Part shown: one piece after another, positions 1,144 through 13,829 of the stretch | Position numbering within the stretch: position 1 is the stretch's first letter | Layout: each line of letters opens with the position of its first letter | Origin: Candidatus Methanophagaceae archaeon GoMg1 | Lineage (GTDB): Archaea; Halobacteriota; Syntropharchaeia; Alkanophagales; Methanospirareceae | Assembly (NCBI GenBank): GCA_013180605.1 | Contig: QBUL01000184.1 | Coordinates: 1 to 45,703 of the forward strand | Reading direction: 5' to 3' | DNA: 45,703 bases | Notes under the pieces: model-generated | Told to the model about the DNA's origin: nothing | Seen by the model: the letters and a program-made list of their open reading frames with translations, nothing else | Database searches by the model: none | Translations under genes and position numbers: made by a program

Positions 1144-2877
1144 TTACGCTAAAGCATCCATGCACTCGATTTTATCCCGCGTTCGACTTATAAACTCGTT
1201 TATGCTCGCCAATTGCTCCTTATACCTGCTTTCGTATTTCTTATTGAATTCAAACTTGACGGATTTGCCATTGAACGAAATAACCGCAATTTTATGGAGT
1301 ATATCCCGCCTCAGCACTTCTATGCCGGCGTTCCTGTATTTCTCCGTTAAAGCGCGTTTGAATATGTTAACGATGTCGTAAGCGATGAAACTGAAGTAAA
1401 TATGCACCTTTATCGGCTCCAAATCCCTGCTCGGCAGCTTGTTTATGTACCATTCGCCTTTCGCTTCTTCGAACAGGGTCTCTATCAACCAGCGATTCCC
1501 GTAATCCCCGATAATCTGCTCTGGCGCTGCGTTAAACACGTCCGTCAGCCAGATAGACAATTCTTCCTTCTCAACCCCGTCTAATACCTCTATTTCCGCC
1601 TTGTAACCCTCTATCCTGTATTTCCTCCACCTACCCTTTCCGACAGCCTTGACCTCCTGTATTTTCCTCAGCGTTTTCGCTATCGTAGTTGCAGGCTTCT
1701 TAGAATTGCTAAATACCACTTCATATTCCTTATTGTACATATCAATGAGTTCCTGCGTAGTATATGAACCAGAAAGTCGTTCCAGGAGCAGACGAAGCTT
1801 ATCTTCCTTCGATAACCGCGCTCTTTTCTTCTCCACGACTATGCGAACAGGAATACCACCGGAAAACGAGCAGACGCACTCTGCAATTCGCACTGGCTTT
1901 TTCTCTGCATCCCGCTTGAGCTTTGCCGCTTTGCCGCGGGCTGTTTTCGGCTCGTACTCCTTTGTTTTCAGTACCACTTCCCGGAATTCATCTTCGCCTA
2001 ATTCAGCAGCCTGCTCGTAGAACTTCGTTCCCCTCTTACCCCTCGTTACGTACTCCATATGTTCTTTATCGTCCAGCCAGAGGAAGTTTGCCTCATCGTA
2101 AAAACCGCGGTCAATGTAAAGCCTTTTTATCTTTTTCCCCGTTATTTCCACTGCCTTTTTGACCATATCCTGCAAAGAAGGTGCGTCTGCCTCGTTTATC
2201 CCCCGCACCTCAAAGTAAATAGGTATCCGGTACACGACATCGTAGATCACGAACAGCTTGTACCCCCTCACGTTCTCTTTCGTCTGATAATCGAAGACTT
2301 CCTCTGCACCCTCGTAAGTCAGTCCATCTACGCGCATTTTGCTGCTATCGCACGCCGCCGTCTCCCCAGTCACGAATCCGAGGATTCTCATCCACTGAAT
2401 GATTGCACGGTATGCTTTTCGCAACTCTTCCTCTCTGTATCGCCGAATGTCCTCGTCAAGCGTGCTTTTGCTCGGCGTTCTATCCCCGTCGAGCGTGCAG
2501 ATTATCTGCAAGAATACGTCGTCCTCCAGCTCTTCGTCCAGGCCGTATGCGTTCTTGAAGCCGAGTATCATCTTGACGATGTACGCGAGACTGATTTGCA
2601 GCGGTGTATAGACGCAGTTGCTCCTCTTTTCCACCTTCATGTCCTCTAGAATATTTACGATGCCCAATCCGTAGAGGACGTAGAGCATGAGATTGAATCC
2701 AGCCCATTTGGTGGCAGTGCGGTGTATTTTCTTATTGATGCGCGTGAATTTTAATGATTCCATCTCTTTACTCATTCGGGGGAAGCGGCGGTTGCCAAAA
2801 TAGCACTTCGTGAATAATACCACTTGATGTCTCTCCAGATCCTCGAAGTTCATACAGTCGGTGATATGGGCGATCAA
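1144..2877 (-). CDS. IS4-family DDE transposase, catalytic part (frame B)
   Basis: This 577-residue frame carries the RNase-H-like catalytic core. Candidate acids are Asp177 (ACDSSKM), Asp256 (YIDRGFYDEANF) and Glu466. The last sits in a textbook IS4 signature Y459-x2-R462-x3-E466-x6-K473. Between the second Asp and the Glu, residues about 353-423 read as a winged-helix-like segment (LSKEDKLRLLLERL ... GKGRWRKYRIE) within the usual beta-strand insertion region. The apparent start is a TTG directly after the stop of the upstream frame; reading one base over joins the frames seamlessly, so this start is probably not used alone. The protein would cut and join element ends at target DNA. Confidence 0.85.
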   Translation of the reverse strand: MIAHITDCMNFEDLERHQVVLFTKCYFGNRRFPRMSKEMESLKFTRINKKIHRTATKWAGFNLMLYVLYGLGIVNILEDMKVEKRSNCVYTPLQISLAYIVKMILGFKNAYGLDEELEDDVFLQIICTLDGDRTPSKSTLDEDIRRYREEELRKAYRAIIQWMRILGFVTGETAACDSSKMRVDGLTYEGAEEVFDYQTKENVRGYKLFVIYDVVYRIPIYFEVRGINEADAPSLQDMVKKAVEITGKKIKRLYIDRGFYDEANFLWLDDKEHMEYVTRGKRGTKFYEQAAELGEDEFREVVLKTKEYEPKTARGKAAKLKRDAEKKPVRIAECVCSFSGGIPVRIVVEKKRARLSKEDKLRLLLERLSGSYTTQELIDMYNKEYEVVFSNSKKPATTIAKTLRKIQEVKAVGKGRWRKYRIEGYKAEIEVLDGVEKEELSIWLTDVFNAAPEQIIGDYGNRWLIETLFEEAKGEWYINKLPSRDLEPIKVHIYFSFIAYDIVNIFKRALTEKYRNAGIEVLRRDILHKIAVISFNGKSVKFEFNKKYESRYKEQLASINEFISRTRDKIECMDALA

Positions 2878-2878
2878 A

Positions 2879-3307
2879 TCACCAAAAAAAGCGGTTGAAA
2901 TCCGCGCCCATCCGCTCCCGGAACTTTGTTACTGTCCCTTTTGTGGGCACCTTCTCGAATCCCATCAACTTCATACACGACTTATTTGAGGAAAGGAAAT
3001 CAAGCGCTTCTTCTATCTTCAGCCTCGCTAATTTCGCAAATAAGAAGAAAGAGAGCATCGAGGCAGCGGTGTAATCTTGTCCGTCATATTTCCTCAGTTC
3101 TTCGTTCTCACTGAGCCGGAGGCGGGCTGTGTTAAAGAAAACCCGGATTGTCCTTATTCCCTGTTTGCTGAGCCGGTTTAGGAAAATCCACAGCTCCAGC
3201 ATGTATCGCAGGCACCCCCAGTCGTAGGAATCGTAGTCAAAAACACTCGATTGTCCCTTTATGTTGAGTAGCTTGTTAACTCCCTCTTTGAACTCATCCT
3301 CTACCAT
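2879..3307 (-). CDS. IS4-family transposase, N-terminal part (frame A)
   Basis: This 142-residue frame begins MVEDEFKEGVNKLL and includes a helical segment DYTAASMLSFFLFAKLARLK followed by KGTVTKFRERMG, typical of the N-terminal DNA-binding region of IS4/IS5-type transposases. It ends at TGA directly after a run of seven T's (coding strand, about 2881-2890). Skipping one T there (+1) continues into the catalytic frame as ...NRFFGDLIAHITD. The gene is therefore interrupted by an indel or read by programmed frameshifting. Confidence 0.75.
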   Translation of the reverse strand: MVEDEFKEGVNKLLNIKGQSSVFDYDSYDWGCLRYMLELWIFLNRLSKQGIRTIRVFFNTARLRLSENEELRKYDGQDYTAASMLSFFLFAKLARLKIEEALDFLSSNKSCMKLMGFEKVPTKGTVTKFRERMGADFNRFFW

Positions 3308-3733: not shown

Positions 3734-3988
3734 ATGAAAGCGATAGCTATACATGAGGATGTGTTAGCAGCGATAAAAATACCAGAGAAGGATGTAGAGA
3801 AGGTATTAAAGCTGGAATTAGCCTTCGCTTTATACCAAAGAGGTATTATTTCGCTGGGTAAAGCAAGAAAACTTGCTGGGATGAGCAAGTGGGAATTTAT
3901 AGAGGAATTAGGGAAAAGAAAAATTGAAAGGCACTACACAGAAAAGGAATTAGAGGAGGATTTAGCCTTTGCCAAAAGTAGTAAGTAA
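3734..3988 (+). CDS. UPF0175 family protein, probable antitoxin
   Basis: The protein has 84 residues. LELAFALYQRGIISLGKARKLAGMSKWEFIEELGKRKI is the characteristic UPF0175 helix-turn-helix region, in which a small DNA-binding domain is followed by a C-terminal tail that can contact a partner. UPF0175 genes regularly precede DUF3368 PIN-like genes, and here the next gene overlaps by 20 bases. The likely role is to repress the operon and neutralise the nuclease. Transcription probably starts in the 60 bases upstream, after the alcohol dehydrogenase remnant. Pairing and family are clear; antitoxin activity is inferred. Confidence 0.8.
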   Translation: MKAIAIHEDVLAAIKIPEKDVEKVLKLELAFALYQRGIISLGKARKLAGMSKWEFIEELGKRKIERHYTEKELEEDLAFAKSSK

Positions 3989-4457
3989 TTCATCACCGCT
4001 GATACATTTAGCTAAAATAGGACATTTAGACCTATTGAAATACTTCTTTGGCGAGATAATTGTGCCAGAAGTAGTGTACAAAGAATGCGTGATTGAAGGA
4101 AAAGGTAGAGAAGATGCGAAAAAGATTGAAAAGGCAGAATGGATTAACGTGGCAAAGATAAAGAATGAAAATTTAAAGAGGGCTCTTATGATGGTTTTGG
4201 ATGAAGGGGAGGCTGAAGCAATAGTGCTGGCTTTGGAAGAATCTGCGGATTTAATTCTCTTAGATGATTATGAAGCGAGGGAAGTAGCCAGAAATTACGA
4301 GTTGACTATCACGGGTGTCATAGGAGGTATTTTAATAATGGCGAAAGAGGAGGGAAAAATAGGTAGCTTGAAAGAAGAATTAGAGAAGTTAAAAGAAACT
4401 GGATTCTGGATAAGTGGGGATTTATACACTAAAATTTTGAGAGAAGAAAAAGGATAA
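3969..4457 (+). CDS. DUF3368 PIN-like ribonuclease, probable toxin
   Basis: The protein has 162 residues and opens PKVVSNSSPLIHLAKIG, where the early Asp of most PIN domains is replaced by the VSNSSPLI motif typical of DUF3368. Later acidic positions are present in LDEGEAEAIVLAL and LILLDDYEARE, matching the PIN metal-binding cluster. The start is a TTG inside the end of the upstream antitoxin; this is the only start giving the canonical N-terminus. As a PIN-domain protein it would cleave RNA when free of its partner. Target RNA is unknown. Confidence 0.8.
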   Translation: MPKVVSNSSPLIHLAKIGHLDLLKYFFGEIIVPEVVYKECVIEGKGREDAKKIEKAEWINVAKIKNENLKRALMMVLDEGEAEAIVLALEESADLILLDDYEAREVARNYELTITGVIGGILIMAKEEGKIGSLKEELEKLKETGFWISGDLYTKILREEKG

Positions 4458-5933: not shown

Positions 5934-5967
5934 AATAAACTTAAGAAACCGAATGAAGGGGGATTTT

Positions 5968-8085
5968 ATGAAGTATCACAAACATATTTTCAATCAAAAA
6001 ACGCTTAACAGAGTCCTGAGTCGAATTAGAGCTTCCTCTGTCCCAAATCTAAAAGAAAAACAGGAATTTATATCGAAATGGATTCAATCTCTTCAAAGCG
6101 GGAAGTTGGACAATATTAAAGAGACGTCCATTGACCAGAAATTTTTGGATGACTTTTTCGTGCGTGTGTTGGGTTATCAGGGCGTGATAGGGGGTTCGGA
6201 GGCGTGGAATATAATTCCACAGCAAAAGATGAAAGTTACCACCAACCGAGCAGATGGGGCATTAGGGTATTTTTCAAACGAGCAAGAAGACATACGGGCG
6301 GTGATTGAACTCAAAGATGCCAATACCGATTTAGATTCACCACAGCACCGCAGGAATGATAAACGAACGCCGGTTCAGCAAGCTTTCGGGTATGTTCCGG
6401 AAGCGGGAAAGAGTTGCAAATGGGTTATTGTTTCTAATTTTAAAGAACTACGACTTTATCATCGTTCATCCCTGAATGAGTATGAAGTGTTTTTCATTGA
6501 AAAACTCTTAGAACCAGAAACGTTCAAAAAGTTTTACTATTTGCTTTCTAAAGAGAATTTGATTGCTAAAGACGGCGAAAGTGGGATTGAAAAGCTTTAT
6601 CGGAACAACACAGAGGAAGAGGAGAAGATATCTAATAAATTCTATGGAGAATACAAAACGGCACGAATCCATCTTTTTGAACACCTGAAGAAGAACAATC
6701 CCGAAAAAGACGAAATGCTCTTACTGGAAAAGACCCAGAAGATTTTAGACCGTTTTATTTTCGTCTGTTTCTGCGAAGATAAGGGTTTGCTACCGGCAAG
6801 GATTTTTAGGGGTACTTTAGAACAGGCAAGAAACGCTATTATAGAACTGGAAGATAAAAATTGGAACTTTATCCAGGCGCTTTTTAAAGCTATTAACGAC
6901 GGGAAACCAGAACACGACATCAACAAATTCGATGGTGGGCTTTTTGCACCCGATGATGAGCTTGATACTCTCAAACTCACTGATGCGGTTTTTGAAGAAC
7001 TGGCAAAGATTACGGATTATGATTTTGACACTGATTTAAACGTTAATATTTTAGGGCATATTTTTGAGCAGTCCATCTCGGATTTAGAGGAGATTAAAGC
7101 GGAAATCAATGGCGAACGCCTTGATAAGAAAAAAGGTAAGCGCAAAAAAGAGGGGATTTATTATACGCCGGAATATATCACCCGCTATATTGTGGAGAAT
7201 GCCATCGGCGGATGGTTGGAAGACAGGAAAAAGGAACTGGGGTTTTATGACTTACCTGAACTAACTGGAAAGGATTACGAATCAATAAAAGTCAAAAAGA
7301 GAGCCTATAACGATAATATAAAACGACATTTAGATTTTTGGGAAGCGTACAAATCTATATTAGAAAATATAAAAGTGCTTGACCCTGCTTGTGGTTCCGG
7401 AGCGTTTTTGAATCAAGCATTTGATTATCTGTTTAGAGAAGGACAACGAGTAAATGAAGAAATAGCAAAGCTGAAACGAGGCACGCATAGTTTGGTTGAC
7501 TTGGATAAAAGCATATTGAGTGACAATCTTTATGGTGTTGATTTAAATTCGGAATCGGTGGAGATCACTAAACTTTCGCTTTGGCTCAAAACAGCCAGCA
7601 AGCATAAAGAACTGACCGCTCTGGATGAGAATGTTACATGTGGAAATTCGCTTATTGATGATAAATCTATTGATCCTAAAGCGTTTGAGTGGGAAAAAGA
7701 ATTTCCATTTGAGTTTGATGTGGTGATTGGGAATCCCCCTTATCTGAACGCTATAAACATGCAAGAAACTATCCCACAACAAAGGCGGTGGCTGAAAGAA
7801 AATTACTCATATCTAAAAGAAAAGTGGGACATCTATGTGTGCTTTATTGAAAGGGGATTACAAAAGCTGAGAAAAGAGGGATATATTAGCTATATTATTC
7901 CAGATTCTTTCCTTACAGAAAAGTATTCAGATCATCTTAGAGCTTACCTTGAGAAGAATAAAAGGATTATTCAGATAGATTATTTCCCAGATATTGAGAT
8001 ATTTGAAGATGTTGCTGTTCACAATATCATATTTGTTTTTAAAAACACAAAAGCAAATGTCCCTATAAAGAAAATTAAGCTATAA
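5968..8085 (+). CDS. Type IIG restriction-modification enzyme, N-terminal nuclease and methyltransferase part
   Basis: The start at 5968 (MKYHKHIFNQKTL) has an AAGGGGGA ribosome site. The 705-residue frame holds a PD-(D/E)xK-like nuclease near residues 95-115 (RADGALGY ... VIELKDANTDLD). An adenine methyltransferase follows with an AdoMet motif LDPACGSGAFLNQAF near 470 and the catalytic NPPY motif (VVIGNPPYLNA) near 585. Fused enzymes of this kind methylate one site form and cut the unmethylated form with the same target-recognition domain. The frame ends early at a TAA at 8083; the missing C-terminal part continues at once in the -1 frame. The gene is therefore frameshifted in this assembly and is probably inactive unless the indel is an error. 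Confidence 0.85.
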   Translation: MKYHKHIFNQKTLNRVLSRIRASSVPNLKEKQEFISKWIQSLQSGKLDNIKETSIDQKFLDDFFVRVLGYQGVIGGSEAWNIIPQQKMKVTTNRADGALGYFSNEQEDIRAVIELKDANTDLDSPQHRRNDKRTPVQQAFGYVPEAGKSCKWVIVSNFKELRLYHRSSLNEYEVFFIEKLLEPETFKKFYYLLSKENLIAKDGESGIEKLYRNNTEEEEKISNKFYGEYKTARIHLFEHLKKNNPEKDEMLLLEKTQKILDRFIFVCFCEDKGLLPARIFRGTLEQARNAIIELEDKNWNFIQALFKAINDGKPEHDINKFDGGLFAPDDELDTLKLTDAVFEELAKITDYDFDTDLNVNILGHIFEQSISDLEEIKAEINGERLDKKKGKRKKEGIYYTPEYITRYIVENAIGGWLEDRKKELGFYDLPELTGKDYESIKVKKRAYNDNIKRHLDFWEAYKSILENIKVLDPACGSGAFLNQAFDYLFREGQRVNEEIAKLKRGTHSLVDLDKSILSDNLYGVDLNSESVEITKLSLWLKTASKHKELTALDENVTCGNSLIDDKSIDPKAFEWEKEFPFEFDVVIGNPPYLNAINMQETIPQQRRWLKENYSYLKEKWDIYVCFIERGLQKLRKEGYISYIIPDSFLTEKYSDHLRAYLEKNKRIIQIDYFPDIEIFEDVAVHNIIFVFKNTKANVPIKKIKL

Positions 8086-8870
8086 AAAGTTCCAGATATG
8101 TAGAATGGAACACGGAAAGGGTACCTCATAAAGTACGAAGACCAACATTTCAAGAGCTACACCAAAAATATAAATTAGTAACAAATAAAATCGGGAATTT
8201 TAAAGTTGCTTTTGATGATGTTGGATTTGTCTGCGACCAAACAGTAAGGATTTTAATAAAATGGAATCAGATTTCAAGCGTAGAAAATAAAAGTATCAAA
8301 AACAGTATTGCAAAATATTCAAACTATGACAGAGATAAATTAGAAGAAATATCATCCTTATATCCTTACAAATTCCTAATTATCTTACTAAATTCACGTT
8401 TGCTCCAGTGCATTTTAAATACTTATAGAGGTCCTGGAAGTATTGATCTTAATCCCTTAAAATTAAGACAACTTCCTATTCCAAAGATAATTGACAAAGA
8501 TATACAACAGCCATTCATAGAAAAAGCTGACCAAATGCTATATTTAAATAAGCAATTCCATCAGACACAAAACGAGTTTTTAGACTGGCTCAAAATTCAA
8601 TACGGGTTAGAAAAGCAATCAAAAAAGTTAGAAACTTTTTATGAATTGAACGAAGAAGCGTTTTTCGTAGAACTCAAGAAGAAACTGCCCAAAGAGAATA
8701 AGAACCTTTCACCGAAACAAACCGGTGAAATAAAGCAGTACTTTGAAGATTACCGGCAAAAAATGCTTGCCTTGAAGAACGAGATTGAGAAAACCGATAG
8801 CGAGATTGATGAGATGGTTTATGAACTCTATGGACTGACGAAAGAAGAGATTGAAATCATTAGACGTTAG
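8082..8870 (+). pseudogene. Type IIG enzyme, C-terminal target-recognition part (frameshifted)
   Basis: The frame is open from 8079 and reads IKSSRYVEWNTERVPHK ... LNTYRGPGSIDLNPLKLRQL and then a helical tail. The SIDLNPLKLRQLPIP block is typical of the boundary of target-recognition domains in Eco57I-like enzymes. A long heptad-like helix follows, and the frame ends with YELYGLTKEEIEIIRR, the usual C-terminus of type IIG proteins. It has no start codon near its beginning and continues the sense of the upstream gene after a one-base slip; the joined protein would be about 970 residues, normal for the family. Confidence 0.8.
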
Positions 8871-9006: not shown

Positions 9007-9099
9007 TCGTATAGCGTTTTTAGCATATACGATGTTACCGAAGGCAACGTCCCGGAGGGCAAGGGCGTAAGCCCATAGCATATATGCTATGTTATATGA
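9007..9099 (-). repeat. attC-like palindromic element a (after the TIR gene)
   Basis: Outer arms TCGTATAGCG (9007-9016) and TGTTATATGA (9090-9099) pair with each other. Inner arms TAGCATATA (9021-9029) and TATATGCTA (9081-9089) pair perfectly. Only the low-coordinate side has a four-base spacer (TTTT). The centre holds three small hairpins (GTTACC-GAA-GGCAAC, CCC-GGA-GGG, GGGC-GTAA-GCCC). In gene direction the first box has the AAC core and the last box reads GCTATAC instead of GTTATAC. It lies 30 bases after the TIR stop. The design is like integron attC sites, though the boxes differ from the usual consensus. Confidence 0.6.
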
Positions 9100-9129
9100 T
9101 GGACTGTGCCAATTCTTTCCTATCCTGCA

Positions 9130-9621
9130 TTACTTTCCTGCTTTTTTTGCTGCTGCTTCAACCCAGTCGCCAAGTTTGTTGTAACCGTCATCATCAACCC
9201 AATCGTAAGTTGAAAATCTCTCAAAGAAATATTTTTTGTCGCCATTAGGGCTTGTAAAAATAGGACCAAATGTAATGTCTCCTTTTGTGTCAGTCTTACC
9301 GTCTTTGTCTTTCATTTGATGAACGTAAATTCCTAAAATTCCGTTGCCCTTTTCCCAACTTTGTTCAAGTTCATACTTAACATAGTCTCGATTGCTTGTC
9401 TCTGCGCCGATAAGCACAACTGTTACCGATGTGCCTGTTAGTTGATCATCAATCCACTTCTTAATTGCAGCGTCTCCTTTCTTCTTTACTTCTTCCCACG
9501 AAGCGGAGTCCCAAAATCCTGCTGTGTCTCTGTCGGGTTTAGTAACCCAACTCTTTCTTACTTGTCCTGCTCTCCACACATCTCTTTCGTAGTGGAAGCT
9601 GAAAAATACTTTTCTTGCCAT
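9130..9621 (-). CDS. TIR-domain protein of the MTH538/DUF1863 (ThsB-like) family
   Basis: The protein has 163 residues and begins ARKVFFSFHYERDVWRAGQ, the first strand and loop of the DUF1863 TIR fold. VTVVLIGAETSNRDYVKYEL follows. Glu84 in YVKYELEQS occupies the position of the catalytic NADase/cyclase glutamate of ThsB-type TIRs. This family provides the sensor-synthase of Thoeris anti-phage systems, making an NAD-derived signal for an effector. Here it lies downstream of a three- to four-segment membrane protein on the same strand and no ThsA SIR2 gene is visible. A GGAGGATG-type ribosome site precedes the start. Family assignment is firm; the defence role is inferred. Confidence 0.8.
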   Translation of the reverse strand: MARKVFFSFHYERDVWRAGQVRKSWVTKPDRDTAGFWDSASWEEVKKKGDAAIKKWIDDQLTGTSVTVVLIGAETSNRDYVKYELEQSWEKGNGILGIYVHQMKDKDGKTDTKGDITFGPIFTSPNGDKKYFFERFSTYDWVDDDGYNKLGDWVEAAAKKAGK

Positions 9622-9648
9622 TTTAACATCCTCCTTTTGTGATTAAAT

Positions 9649-9773
9649 ACCTGAATTTTAGAACATATAAACTTTTCGATTTTTGAATCTGCTATTTGAC
9701 CCAGAGGAACGTATTGTTCCACTACATTGTATAGACAAGTTGGTATAAACTTCTTAAAGTCTGAAATTCAGGT
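9649..9773. repeat. Ten-base inverted repeat bracketing the spacer between the membrane and TIR genes
   Basis: ACCTGAATTT at 9649-9658 and AAATTCAGGT at 9764-9773 are exact reverse complements. The second copy includes the last codon and the stop region of the membrane protein gene. They bracket the 146-base spacer before the TIR gene and could pair in the transcript. Function is unknown. Confidence 0.4.
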
Positions 9774-10187
9774 TAATAATACTAAAGCGTAAATTATAAT
9801 CAAAATTGCTATAGAACCGTAAAACCATCCTAAAGTTATAGAAAGCATAATCCTAACTCTTGACTGAACTTTGTCTTTAAACCGATATGCATTCATATCG
9901 AATAAATATTCGTCTGTCTTCAGCCTATTATTGATTACCCACTCATACAACTTTCTATACATTCGTTCCTGCCATAGAAAGTATGCATCCAAAAACCAAA
10001 AAACCAACAGAGGAATGAAGGCAATACAAATTTGATATTCAGTGCCTTTTAACAGTAAAGCGACAACAACAAGAGTTATAGCCCATCCTTTTATCATAAA
10101 GGAATTGAAAGCCATCCGTCTTATAATATCTTGGATTATCTCGATTTCTTTTAGCATGTATTCTTTCAGGCTTTCTTTATTCTCCAT
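9768..10187 (-). CDS. Multi-pass membrane protein linked to the TIR gene
   Basis: From the ATG at 10187, chosen because AAAGGAG lies eight bases upstream, the protein has 139 residues. An amphipathic N-terminal helix (EIIQDIIRRMAFNSF) leads into hydrophobic segments at about residues 31-47, 52-70 and 112-138. LLVFWFLDAYFLWQERMYRKLYE follows the second segment with a positive, aromatic face. The layout resembles small membrane proteins seen next to TIR genes and the SLATT-like effectors of nucleotide-signal defence systems. A pore-forming or membrane-disrupting effector triggered by the TIR product is an inference. The gene begins only 30 bases after element b. Confidence 0.65.
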   Translation of the reverse strand: MENKESLKEYMLKEIEIIQDIIRRMAFNSFMIKGWAITLVVVALLLKGTEYQICIAFIPLLVFWFLDAYFLWQERMYRKLYEWVINNRLKTDEYLFDMNAYRFKDKVQSRVRIMLSITLGWFYGSIAILIIIYALVLLT

Positions 10188-10217
10188 ATTCATCATCTCC
10201 TTTCAAGGCACAATCTT

Positions 10218-10305
10218 TCGTATAACGTTTCCGATGTAAAAGAAGTTCTGCGTAGGCAGAATTTGGACGGAGCGACGCGTAGCCTTTTACATCGTGTTAT
10301 ACGAC
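10218..10305 (-). repeat. attC-like palindromic element b (between HEPN gene and membrane/TIR pair)
   Basis: Outer arms TCGTATAACG (10218-10227) and TGTTATACGA (10295-10304) pair. Inner arms CGATGTAAAAG (10232-10242) and CTTTTACATCG (10284-10294) pair over all 11 bases. As in element a, only the low-coordinate side carries a four-base spacer (TTTC). The middle includes TTCTGC-GTAG-GCAGAA. Read in gene direction it starts GTATAAC and ends GTTATAC, giving the AAC and GTT cores needed by integron integrases. It begins 3 bases after the HEPN stop and ends 30 bases before the next start, so genes and sites are packed as in a cassette array. Confidence 0.65.
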
Positions 10306-10308
10306 GTC

Positions 10309-11325
10309 TTATGCATTTGACGAGGCCTCCCGTATTCCATTAGCAAGTTTTTCGATAAGATTCGAAAGATATTGAACATCATCTTCTTTAACAACGATTC
10401 TCTGTCCGATTTTGTAACTTTCGTCCCCACTTCTATCGAGGTAGCGTTGATCAACAATACCTTCAGTATGTAACAACAGATGTCGTTTCTGGAAGAGTAC
10501 TTTCAGATTTTTTAATTCTTCAGTTGTAAGCCAATCCTCGTAACTTTTGCCACAAACTGTTTGCCAAAGTGTATTTCCATTGTCAATTCTTTGGAAAACG
10601 TTGGGGGGAGCTACTGGGGCGTTTGGTATTCTACTGAACAATTGCTCAGCGAGTCTCTGAAAGGCGACGATGCAATCTGAAAGACTTGTCTCAATAAGCG
10701 ATCTACGAGTTATCTCAGCCTCATCCTTTTTCCCTCTCTCTTCAAGGGCATTCATGATTACTTTGATATTATCCAGTTTTACTCGAACTTTCTTAATGGA
10801 ATCATCGAATGTTCGCTCTACAGAATTATGCCCACAACATGGACAAAAAAAGGCGCTACCTATTACAGAGAATCGGGCACCACATTTATCACACTGGATC
10901 TTTAGTTCCATCGCTTCCTTAGCAGTAGCCGGAATCATTGTTCTTCTCTTTCGGACACCTTTTACTTCTAGAGATATTGGAAAAAAACTATCTCTATGCC
11001 ATTTTCTATTAAATCTTAGCGCATCTTTACGAAGAGATTCGTCTATGATTCCTTCAATTTGCTTTCCAGCCTGTTCTTTTGCATGTTCAATTTGTTCAGT
11101 TGTCCCCCAAGAGTTTGAGTTAGCTTCATGTCGACAAAGTGGGCAGAATACAGATTCGTCTTTAAACAAATTAGCCCAATCATCTGCGTGGACTTTAAAT
11201 TGGAATAAACAATCTTCCGAAGGACATTCTTTATCTAAATAACCTTCTTCATCTGCTTCAATTGGCACTGAGATTTTGTGCGTGCCTTCAAGCTTCTTTA
11301 ACTGTCGAATAGTTTCTTCAAACAT
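10309..11325 (-). CDS. Zinc-ribbon protein with HEPN-like RHxxxH motif
   Basis: The protein has 338 residues. Two zinc ribbons can be read: Cys34/Cys39 with Cys61/Cys64, and Cys145/Cys148 with Cys161/Cys164. The C-terminal third is helical (IVAFQRLAEQLF ... KNLKVLFQKRHLLLHTEGIVD) and contains R281-x4-H286, the active-site pattern of HEPN ribonucleases. HEPN proteins act in toxin-antitoxin, abortive-infection and RNA-processing systems. The zinc ribbons may sense nucleic acid. A GGGAGG site precedes the ATG. No named family is recognised over the full length. Its stop abuts element b, so it looks like one cassette. Confidence 0.6.
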   Translation of the reverse strand: MFEETIRQLKKLEGTHKISVPIEADEEGYLDKECPSEDCLFQFKVHADDWANLFKDESVFCPLCRHEANSNSWGTTEQIEHAKEQAGKQIEGIIDESLRKDALRFNRKWHRDSFFPISLEVKGVRKRRTMIPATAKEAMELKIQCDKCGARFSVIGSAFFCPCCGHNSVERTFDDSIKKVRVKLDNIKVIMNALEERGKKDEAEITRRSLIETSLSDCIVAFQRLAEQLFSRIPNAPVAPPNVFQRIDNGNTLWQTVCGKSYEDWLTTEELKNLKVLFQKRHLLLHTEGIVDQRYLDRSGDESYKIGQRIVVKEDDVQYLSNLIEKLANGIREASSNA

Positions 11326-11560
11326 TGAGATGCCTCCCGTTATGTAGGTCTCGTTGAATATGCTTTATTTCCTTCAGTACATTGATATTACTATAGATTA
11401 TATAAATGTTCTTAAGATAGCATGAGATGCCGTATAACTTCGGTATATCCAGCATCAATGCCGCATATCCATCCAATTTGGAATGAAATCCGAAACTTAC
11501 TTCGTATATACCGCCCTTTAGCTGACTGCTAATCTTCATTTCCTTCAACCTCATTTTCAA
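11318..11560 (-). CDS. Small unrecognised reading frame overlapping the HEPN gene start
   Basis: The 80-codon frame includes MKISSQLKGGIYEVSFGFH and then a stretch rich in isoleucine and tyrosine. It ends eight bases inside the next gene, an overlap typical of translationally coupled genes. No ribosome site or family is recognised, and the second half looks like AT-rich chance coding. It could be the cut remains of a gene lost when the cassette region formed. Confidence 0.25.
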   Translation of the reverse strand: MKMRLKEMKISSQLKGGIYEVSFGFHSKLDGYAALMLDIPKLYGISCYLKNIYIIYSNINVLKEIKHIQRDLHNGRHLNV

Positions 11561-11570
11561 TAAACGATTT

Positions 11571-11756
11571 CTTTATTATTAACCACAAGATTACACAACA
11601 CTTTTTCTTTTTAGAAAAAAGAAAACCTGTGCTAAAAGAAAAACAAAGAGAAGGTTTTTAGCCAAGGTTTTTACCGAAGGTAAAAAAGTTATTGGTAAAG
11701 CTTTTCTTTCTAAAAAAAAGGTTTCTCGTGAAATCTCGTGGTTTATTAATTGCAAT
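11571..11756. repeat. Degenerate copy of the dispersed inverted repeat
   Basis: The gap starts with TTAACCACAAGATTACACA and ends with CTCGTGAAATCTCGTGGTTTATTAA, an imperfect inverted pair related to the tails of the larger repeats at about 13830 and 28055. The middle holds AT-rich hairpins such as TTTTTACC-GAA-GGTAAAAA. No gene is seen. Confidence 0.45.
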
Positions 11757-11786: not shown

Positions 11787-13715
11787 CTACTTTCGATAAA
11801 CCCCTTTTATCCTCGATTTCCCGGGCGGCAGAAAACTCAATATCTTATCCTGTGTTGCTATCTGTTTAATTTCCTCTCTCTCTTCTCCTTTCGCACGGTC
11901 AACAAAGAACTTCACAATTTCCTTTGACAACTCGTTTTTTCCCACATCGCCACCAGGTTCGAGTTCCACGAAATTATCCAGCTTGTTCCGCTGCGAATCC
12001 GAAGAAGGGCATGCAACCAACCTGTTTTCGGCTTTTTCAATACCTATGCACAGCCCTAACGCCGCTTTGAAATATTTCCTTTTACCTCGCACCACAAAAC
12101 TCCCTTTCTTTATGTATTCCCCCGACGGTGGTGTCTTACTCACCTGCTCGCCGGTAACGCAATAACACTCACCTTCGTAGAATCCGTATTTCCACAAATT
12201 CGAATACGAAGCTGCAAATTGGGCTATCTCCTTTAAGCCATCATCGGAAACTTCTTTACCGCCGGTCTTCGCTATTACTGCCGGTGCGCCCTCCGCCTGC
12301 GTATGGAAAAAGAGGTCATCTGCGTCCATATACTTCTTCACCAGTATCTCATTGGATGTAGCGTCTTTTCCGCCTACTACAAGAAAACCATCTGAAGTCT
12401 CGAACCACCTGAATTTTTCATACCATTCCTCTTTTTTCTTTACCGTTTTTCGCTCAGGAATCATGTCCTTTTCTATGCTTATTCCTTTCTCCTTTTCCGC
12501 CTTTATCTTCTTTTTCGTCCCCTCTATCGCACGTTCCACTCCTTCCCGCTTCTTCCTGAATATTTTTGCCTTTTCATAATACGCGCCGGCATTCTTATGC
12601 AGAGAAACCGAAGTATCGAGTTCAAGTTGAACGTCGGTATCGGGTAGAGTCAAAGTGACAACTTTTTTTGTTTTGCCCATTTCCTGCAATGTGTTTTCTA
12701 TCTCAGTATACCGTGCATAGATGAACTCACCCTTATTTATGCTTTCTTCCTCTTTTATTTTGAAATTGCGAAGCGCCTCGAGTTGCTCGTTCAAAATCCG
12801 TTCGTACTTTCCAATCTCCTTTTCGTATTCGGTTATCGCTCGTTCTTCCACTTCTTCTGCTATTTGAGCGGTGAAAAAATCATCCGCAGCATCGTTAAAA
12901 GAAGGAAAAAACACTTTATCGTTGGTTTCGTAGATGCACAACTCAAGGGGGAGCACGTCCACTTTTTCTTTGCCTTCCTTTTCCATCACGACATGCGCTT
13001 TCAGTTTGGACTTGTCATTTTTTAATATGGGCTCAAATATAGCACGTATTGCCGCATGAATGGCTCTTAGGTCATCCGAACGGAGTTCATCCGCATTCTT
13101 TTCTTTCTCTATCCCTGCATTTTCACACACTTCTTCCGCGTATAATCTGCCTAAACCCAGCTCTGATGCAAGAATCCTGACCACGCTTTTATCCTGTTTG
13201 CAAAGCCCCGCCAGTTCCTGCTCGTTCATTTCCAATGGATTTCCTCGTGAAGGGGGCCGCTCATACTTCTCGCCTACTTTTATTTTCCTTGATGCAAAGG
13301 TCTTTCTCCTCAACGGCTGCACGATCTCCCCATTCTCGTCAATAACCACAATGTTTCCCCTTGGGAGCAGTTCGGCGACCAAACTGAGTTTTTTATCCCA
13401 CCTTTCTATCGTTATCTTCACTATCCGGTCGAAGTCGAGCTGCTGTATTTGAGCAATCCTGCCGCCGCCGAGGTGCTTTCTGAGGTACATCGAGAAGTTA
13501 GAAGGAATTCTTGGTGAGGGCCTTTTATATTTAGTGATGTGAATCCTCCTACCTGCTTCGATAATCAAATCAATCCCGCCTTTATCTTTTTGATGAAGTT
13601 TTAGCCTTATTTCTTCTTTACCCTGCTGATACGCTTTCACGACTCGTGCTCCTAACAGCTCTTGTAGCTCAGTAACGATAGCTGCTATGTCCACGGTGCT
13701 CATTGATTCTTTCAT
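11787..13715 (-). CDS. NFACT-family ribosome quality-control protein (Rqc2/NEMF homologue)
   Basis: From the ATG at 13715 the protein has 642 residues; an ATG at 13703 (MSTVDIAAIV) is equally possible. NFACT-N is clear (HITKYKRPSPRIPSNFSMYL and LGGGRIAQIQQLDFDRIVKI). Charged coiled-coil segments then run through the middle (about 310-440), and NFACT-R follows at about 455-560 (GFLVVGGKDATSNEILVKKY, DLFFHTQAEGAPAVI). Homologues bind stalled large ribosomal subunits carrying peptidyl-tRNA and can add C-terminal tails to the nascent chain. Length and order are normal for archaea. It stands alone between two repeats. Confidence 0.9.
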   Translation of the reverse strand: MKESMSTVDIAAIVTELQELLGARVVKAYQQGKEEIRLKLHQKDKGGIDLIIEAGRRIHITKYKRPSPRIPSNFSMYLRKHLGGGRIAQIQQLDFDRIVKITIERWDKKLSLVAELLPRGNIVVIDENGEIVQPLRRKTFASRKIKVGEKYERPPSRGNPLEMNEQELAGLCKQDKSVVRILASELGLGRLYAEEVCENAGIEKEKNADELRSDDLRAIHAAIRAIFEPILKNDKSKLKAHVVMEKEGKEKVDVLPLELCIYETNDKVFFPSFNDAADDFFTAQIAEEVEERAITEYEKEIGKYERILNEQLEALRNFKIKEEESINKGEFIYARYTEIENTLQEMGKTKKVVTLTLPDTDVQLELDTSVSLHKNAGAYYEKAKIFRKKREGVERAIEGTKKKIKAEKEKGISIEKDMIPERKTVKKKEEWYEKFRWFETSDGFLVVGGKDATSNEILVKKYMDADDLFFHTQAEGAPAVIAKTGGKEVSDDGLKEIAQFAASYSNLWKYGFYEGECYCVTGEQVSKTPPSGEYIKKGSFVVRGKRKYFKAALGLCIGIEKAENRLVACPSSDSQRNKLDNFVELEPGGDVGKNELSKEIVKFFVDRAKGEEREEIKQIATQDKILSFLPPGKSRIKGVYRK

Positions 13716-13718
13716 ACC

Positions 13719-13741
13719 AAACTTTCTTATAAAGAAAGTTT
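13719..13741. promoter_or_regulatory. Perfect hairpin just upstream of the NFACT gene
   Basis: AAACTTTCTT-ATA-AAGAAAGTTT is a ten-base-pair palindrome ending four bases before the NFACT start. Its centre reads TTTATAAG on the minus strand, like a TATA box, but it is too near the ATG (about 15 bases) for a normal archaeal promoter. It may be an operator or a leader hairpin. Confidence 0.3.
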
Positions 13742-13829
13742 GAACAAAGAAAAAGTTTTTTTTGTGGGAGGGCACAAGATTAACACAAGACCAGAAATCA
13801 GAAATAGGGAAAACGATTTAGACTTCTTG

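Follow-up and report, generated by a model that had tools for sequence, protein, structure and literature searches.

A probable integron-like cassette array of defense genes, without its recombinase, in a Methanophagales archaeon

On contig QBUL01000184.1 of Candidatus Methanophagaceae archaeon GoMg1, two elements with the plan of integron attC sites lie at the ends of same-strand genes of apparent defense function. Do these elements delimit integron gene cassettes, and if so, which enzyme would move the cassettes? The window analyzed here is the whole stretch of 45,703 nucleotides (nt), contig C146. It comes from a metagenome-assembled genome (MAG) of the Methanophagales (anaerobic methanotrophic archaea of group 1, ANME-1) that has 2.34 Mb and is 86% complete. 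Our answer is that the window very probably carries a small integron-like array of cassettes whose recombinase has been lost, a member of a family of archaeal and bacterial platforms using a recombinase without the IntI-specific domain. The initial annotation had proposed integron-like cassettes of defense genes with no integrase nearby, possibly of a divergent kind, and the arrays, the recombinase found in relatives, and the junctions at the G^TT core described below support that proposal.

Both elements are read on the minus strand, which is the gene strand. In element b (10218 to 10305), the annotated outer boxes are in place (TCGTATAACG at 10218 to 10227 and TGTTATACGA ending at 10305), and the gene strand reads TCGTATAAC-a-CGATGTAAAAG ... 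CTTTTACATCG-gaaac-GTTATACGA. This is an R'' box (10297 to 10305), an L stem (CGATGTAAAAG/CTTTTACATCG), a terminal hairpin, and an R' box (10218 to 10226). Element a (9007 to 9099) likewise has its outer boxes where they were annotated (TCGTATAGCG at 9007 to 9016 and TGTTATATGA ending at 9099), with an R'' box TCATATAAC (9091 to 9099), an L stem TAGCATATA/TATATGCTA, and a last box GCTATACGA (9007 to 9015) in which, as annotated, GCT replaces the last GTT. The close packing of genes and elements was also borne out: the stop codon of the HEPN gene is at 10309, 3 nt from element b; the membrane protein gene starts at 10196, 21 nt from element b; and the stop codon of the TIR gene is at 9130, 30 nt from element a. 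By itself the ten-base box is not rare (5 matches versus 3.1 expected, with one mismatch allowed); the whole plan of the elements is far beyond chance. Folded as single-stranded DNA, element b gave z scores of −5.4 (plus strand) and −3.8 (gene strand); for element a the z score was about −3.1. An Rfam scan of the window returned tRNA only and matched neither element. The strict pattern TCGTATAACGN{40,70}CGTTATACGA also had no match; it is too strict because the R' box derives from the next cassette.

With a loose pattern, we found three true homologues in relatives (genomes G020, G011, and G019). When five elements were aligned, the outer boxes were kept and the inner 11-bp stem varied by compensating substitutions, with both sides changed in 8 of 11 inner-stem pairs and in 11 of 24 pairs overall. 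None of 500 shuffles reached the covariation score, and shifting the partner by 1 to 3 columns destroyed the pairing. Covariance model R1 found 24 to 25 elements in the window's genome and had matches in 49 of the 51 family genomes; the Methanophagales have hundreds of these sites, and the elements often formed same-strand runs spaced 0.4 to 3 kb apart, for example on contigs C177 (at 3392, 4192, and 5763), C105, C101, C1, and C140. At the level of the phylum, 54 of 197 genomes had matches at E ≤ 1e-4. Among them are G035, G188, and G110, each a single contig, which speaks against a binning artifact. A same-strand stop codon lay within 100 nt upstream of 99 of 125 elements versus 14% of random positions. 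The final covariance model, R2, was built solely from loci in other genomes; on the minus strand it recovered element b at 91.4 bits (E = 1.9e-16) and element a at 41.7 bits (E = 3.4e-6). With filters off and both strands of the 45.7 kb searched, nothing beyond these two scored better than E = 1.6, and the match with that value is the antisense of element b. The initial annotation had asked for a search with a custom model and for the position of the sites relative to gene boundaries; both came out in its favor.

The family shows the same-orientation arrays of integrons, in which each cassette is ended by an attC site, and its sites have AAC and G^TT boxes around an imperfect inner hairpin whose structure, rather than sequence, is conserved. 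In most family elements R' starts with GTTA (e.g., GTTATAC or GTTAGGC), and the boxes are more diverse than they are in the window. The initial annotation stated that the boxes depart from the RYYYAAC/GTTRRRY consensus; this holds for most elements, but 26 of 93 have a strict RYYYAAC and 23 of 93 a strict GTTRRRY.

A dedicated recombinase was looked for in relatives, and one family linked to the arrays was found. A single scan of named genomes gave 80 recombinase-centered loci, around which R1 matches were counted at E ≤ 0.01. They came from the archaeal groups Methanophagales, Altarchaeota, Archaeoglobi, and Micrarchaeota, from the bacterial groups Nitrospirota, WOR-3, Nitrospinota, Desulfobacterota, Acidobacteriota, Caldisericota, Dehalococcoidia, and Patescibacteria, and from further taxa. 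R1 matches fell downstream on the recombinase strand in 54 of 57 cases and upstream on the opposite strand in the other 3, and there were none in the two remaining arrangements (binomial P about 4e-30). All three exceptions were Patescibacteria, in which the recombinase is shorter and the array lies 5' of it, as is usual in integrons. At the patescibacterial loci L175, L179, and L187, the recombinase has no N-terminal extension, attI is 5', and the array diverges from the gene; the IntI domain is absent there, too. Near-complete archaeal genomes in which a recombinase is followed by a same-strand array are represented by G028:C2:375349-379377, where the gene is intact, and G134:C1:124703-128208.

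In the Methanophagales these enzymes are tyrosine recombinases of 340 to 370 amino acids (aa) that have an extended N terminus and a SAM-like domain and possess all of the catalytic residues (by sequence inspection, R194, H284, R287, H310, and Y319 in the G020:C3 protein). The initial annotation had suggested looking for an integron integrase elsewhere in the genome; the recombinase family found in relatives is not IntI but a relative of it without the IntI-specific additional domain near patch III. Two blocks present in IntI1, 41 residues in total and corresponding to the IntI-specific region, are absent, as are about 42 residues in the comparison with 2a3v. The distance from GLR to HxLRH is 91 to 92 residues in nearly all measured copies versus 133 in IntI1. 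No protein in the 51 family genomes exceeded the cutoff of TIGR02249 (integron integrase); the family recombinases reached 226 to 231 bits at best versus a cutoff of 265, and the best partial matches, which lie near elements, skip model positions of about 180 to 233. At low thresholds TIGR02249 had matches in all 14 control genomes, so we did not use weak matches as evidence of IntI. Against the archaeal XerA model NF040815 (recomb_XerA_Arch), the ANME recombinase scored 255 bits, above the cutoff of 220. In a rough tree the cassette-associated recombinases of archaea and bacteria were mixed in one group (support, 95/91), to which neither IntI1 nor E. coli XerC/D belonged; because its branches are long and IntI is represented by just two sequences, this tree cannot place IntI relative to the clade. 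No relative of the recombinase was found among the viral contigs of IMG/VR.

The initial annotation described the system as two attC-like elements. Both are real, but a third site was overlooked: an attI-like site at 11436 to 11529 on the minus strand, with the repeats GGTATATACGAAGT... and CCAAATTGGATGGATATGCGGCATTGATGCTGGATATACCGAAG^TT, the core G at 11438, and the first cassette running from 11437. This region aligned with 12 attI regions that lie just 3' of Methanophagales recombinase genes, and conservation ended at G^TT. The repeat region of ANME-1 attI sites reads GTATATACG..CGGATATA..CCAAATTGGA..GGATATACG..GGATATACCGAAG and ends with GTT; the sequences beyond are unrelated. The closest relative of the window's site, at L120 (G054:C23), is located behind a recombinase pseudogene. 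In other phyla attI consists of a palindrome plus (G)AACGAG^TT, 44 to 147 nt past the recombinase match, and in Patescibacteria it is beyond the recombinase start, with an identical GTT offset in three of three. Across the family, then, attI adjoins the recombinase, and the first cassette starts at G^TT. At L111 (G020:C3) and L112 (G020:C121), the contigs break at or just past the attI GTT core, as expected if one attI precedes several different cassettes in a population.

If circular cassettes are opened between the G and the TT, the box at the start of a cassette must pair with the R'' box at that cassette's own end and not with the R' box of the site. Among sites taken from a model that favors R-box pairing within one element, a bias that opposes a cassette-wise result, R'' matched its own cassette start at 4.83 of 6 outer bases; the R' of the same site gave 3.63, and randomly drawn R' boxes gave 3.47 ± 0.19. 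The attI site matched the first R'' at 5.44 of 6 bases in ANME-1 (versus 3.50 ± 0.39; reached in 0 of 5,000 shuffles) and at 5.38 of 6 outside ANME-1 (versus 3.70 ± 0.19), where 19 of 29 pairs were perfect. Examples are GTTATACGC ... GCGTATAAC | GTTAGGCGA ... TCGCCTAAC at L132 and GTTATATGA ... TCATATAAC | GTTAGGCGC ... GCGCCTAAC at L200.

Clean junctions at the G^TT core were also found in relatives. L109 and L110, in two ANME-1 genomes at the same trp-side location, have the trp-side flank in common and unrelated first cassettes, and they become nearly identical again exactly from the G^TT of the first attC onward. An ANME-1 locus (L105) and a Dehalococcoidia locus (L200) have unrelated flanks and a common methyltransferase cassette (82% identity over 958 bp) that starts with G^TTAGGCGC and ends with GCGCCTAAC, so that its limits fall exactly at the core. 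In the same way, L105 has another cassette in common with L135 of the Nitrospinae. As read from these sequence junctions, cassettes are exchanged precisely at G^TT. A candidate cassette transfer is seen between L090 (G000:C177) and L130 (Altarchaeum), which have about 2.2 kb at 76% identity up to the R'' box.

Read on the gene strand, the window's array runs attI, HEPN cassette, attC b, membrane protein and TIR cassette (PADLOC PDC-M50A/B), attC a. The limits of the cassettes are set by the cores of the sites. Cassette 1 (10226 to 11437, minus strand; 1,212 bp) extends from the G^TT of attI to that of attC b. Its 338-aa protein (10309 to 11325, minus strand) has a zinc-ribbon-like N-terminal part and a C-terminal RxxxxH motif (RHLLLH), from which motif only we call it putatively HEPN-like; in PADLOC it resembles PDC-M14A (E = 4.5e-14 over residues 17 to 167). 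Cassette 2 (9015 to 10225, minus strand; 1,211 bp) extends from the G^TT of attC b to the core of attC a and has two genes. These encode a 142-aa membrane protein (9768 to 10196, minus strand; PADLOC PDC-M50A, E = 9.5e-48) and a 163-aa TIR protein (9130 to 9621, minus strand; Pfam ThsB_TIR PF08937, E = 6e-27; PADLOC ThsB, E = 4.7e-70, and PDC-M50B, E = 6.2e-62). PDC-M50A and PDC-M50B thus lie side by side in one cassette, as in the candidate defense system of that name. Elsewhere in the window's genome, cassette-adjacent genes encode a DRT8 reverse transcriptase and MkoA-like and TIR-like effector proteins, as well as an amine oxidase and a glyoxalase; because of the last two, the cargo is defense-rich, though not defense alone. 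Inside cassette 2, between the membrane protein and TIR genes, an imperfect inverted repeat at 9642 to 9780 (34-nt arms, 71% complementary) has a TTAAC-like end and an end GTATTTAAT. It is possibly a decayed site and was matched by neither R1 nor R2. Because an attI-like site is present, we read the array as integron-like with its recombinase lost; judged from its sequence, it is a recombinase-less integron, more than a pair of sites.

We propose that the family system works as follows. The enzyme of the cassette system would be a tyrosine recombinase, akin to those of the IntI and Xer types but lacking the IntI-specific domain, that is encoded next to a palindromic attI. It would insert circular gene cassettes between the G and the TT of attI, and it would excise or reshuffle cassettes at the hairpin-forming attC sites that end each of them, with attC presumably acting as a folded single strand. 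The newest cassettes would enter beside attI. Only a recombinase acting from another part of the genome would allow the window's array to change.

Several observations weigh against this reading. The recombination itself is a prediction from sequence, and the family system appears to work like an integron. A search of the window detected no recombinase remnant, and the window's own genome, 86% complete, has degenerate copies only; any activity of the window's array is therefore putative. The start of cassette 1, GTTATACGG, pairs with R'' TCGTATAAC at 5 of 6 bases, and for the window's own two cassettes box pairing is only 5 of 6, which is not diagnostic alone. When the same site was compared among relatives, homology stopped just past the NFACT gene, and near relatives have no array there, so gain or loss cannot be read at the window locus itself. 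The origin of the sites used in the pairing test belongs on this list as well, although its bias opposes the result. Most of the genomes, moreover, are MAGs, but the sites also occur in genomes that are near-complete or consist of a single contig. Finally, neither R1 nor R2 gave a significant attC detection on class 1 arrays; the sole R2 match there (12.7 bits, E = 3.3) was exactly on the aadA1 attC.

This last result bears on the rival that comes closest, that the window has an ordinary archaeal cluster of attC sites lacking integron integrases (CALIN), with canonical sites served by a normal IntI encoded elsewhere or in neighbors, the recombinase near the arrays being incidental. Archaeal integrons and CALINs have been published in nine phyla (Ghaly et al. 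2022, PMC9668308), and the G^TT core, the R''/R' logic, and the packing of cassettes are identical. We nevertheless consider it unlikely, given that no integrase exceeded the TIGR02249 cutoff in the family genomes, that recombinases without the IntI domain adjoin arrays together with attI at dozens of archaeal and bacterial loci in two layouts, and that the sites differ in structure (1- and 5-nt spacers and an uninterrupted stem) and our models do not match class 1 attC sites significantly. Two other explanations are each highly improbable, and both were rejected on the evidence of the junctions. Hairpins with stable stems just past stop codons could be transcription terminators or RNA regulatory elements of gene 3' ends, and some attC sites do act as terminators; but the break in homology falls exactly at G^TT, within the element and not at the ends of genes, the end boxes pair by cassette and not by element, the sites are too tightly linked to a recombinase, and no Rfam family matches. 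Dispersal, many copies per genome, and conserved outer boxes resembling terminal inverted repeats would likewise suit the ends or remnants of a transposing element, such as a miniature inverted-repeat transposable element or an insertion sequence (IS), inserting behind genes. In this case, however, the units exchanged are whole genes and not hairpins, the inner sequence diverges while its pairing stays, and no target duplications were seen around element a or b (judged by eye only, with no systematic test).

The array has an archaeal NFACT gene (11787 to 13775) on one side and a type IIG restriction-modification gene on the other. The interval from NFACT to the attI-like site contains an imperfect inverted repeat at 11578 to 11746 (43-nt arms 83 nt apart), at the place where relatives carry the recombinase; it could be a small inserted element. 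The type IIG gene (Eco57I/MmeI-like; 5953 to 8870, plus strand) is split: a 710-aa open reading frame stops at 8085, and the C-terminal frame restarts near 8400, so the gene looks broken. Farther out, a DDE transposase at 1144 to 3307 (minus strand) is present as two open reading frames of an IS element; it lies upstream of a UPF0175/DUF3368 pair (3734 to 4457) that is probably a toxin-antitoxin-like module.

We consider it likely that these loci represent a second integron lineage, sister to or predating the IntI integrons, whose recombinases lack the IntI domain and which is common to archaea (ANME-1, Archaeoglobi, Altarchaeota, and others) and many uncultured bacterial phyla, moving antiviral and other genes across domains. 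The extra domain of IntI is the mark by which integron integrases are identified and sought, and the passage of PMC8352920 that cites Messier and Roy (2001) describes it as unique to them and necessary for activity. If there is such a lineage, cassettes can be captured without the domain, and the missing recombinase is supplied for many arrays that lack one. A cassette system that follows the same logic without the IntI domain alters the search for integrons and their dating, and it opens their origin to testing; it also offers an explanation for arrays with no visible integrase. Genes, many of them antiviral, would have a concrete route between archaea and bacteria, and ANME-1, a major consumer of methane, would have a rapid way to change its defense repertoire.

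In the open-licence PMC literature, we found no published description of this type of recombinase and array. The survey of PMC9668308 required both PF00589 and an IntI-domain profile to call an integrase and reported six IntIs for 539 attC sites; its main text does not mention ANME. Like ours, the arrays of that survey are in archaeal MAGs, mostly have no recognized integrase, and share cassettes across domains, but the family's type of recombinase would escape its criterion. The requirement for the IntI domain in published archaeal surveys may explain why this recombinase had not been reported. With recombinases of the XerA, XerC, and XerD type, the family shares the catalytic fold; it differs in being linked to attI and cassette arrays rather than to chromosome dimer resolution and in forming a separate clade in the rough tree. 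Both genes of PDC-M50, as defined in PADLOC, are present in the window, where they differ in being packed as one cassette between two attC-like sites.

The closest comparison is with IntI integrons (class 1; reference arrays L205 to L208). They and the family have in common an attI beside the recombinase, an attC hairpin at each cassette end, a G^TT crossover, same-strand cassettes, an R'' box complementary to the first bases of the cassette that it ends, and accessory or defense cargo. The family differs in its recombinase, which lacks the IntI-specific domain and, outside Patescibacteria, has an N-terminal extension. It also differs in layout, with attI at the 3' end of the gene for this enzyme and an array that points the same way as that gene. 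Its attC sites usually have 1 nt after R'', 5 nt before R', and an unbroken stem of 10 to 12 bp, whereas in the class 1 sites examined the spacers are longer and the stems are shorter and interrupted. In place of the extrahelical bases and roughly symmetric spacers of class 1 sites, the family has another kind of asymmetry, and by analogy this spacer asymmetry could mark the strand, a role that extrahelical bases have in IntI systems. Apart from the IntI domain and this fine structure of class 1 attC, the system has every integron feature that we tested; it is a variant of the integron rather than a canonical one.

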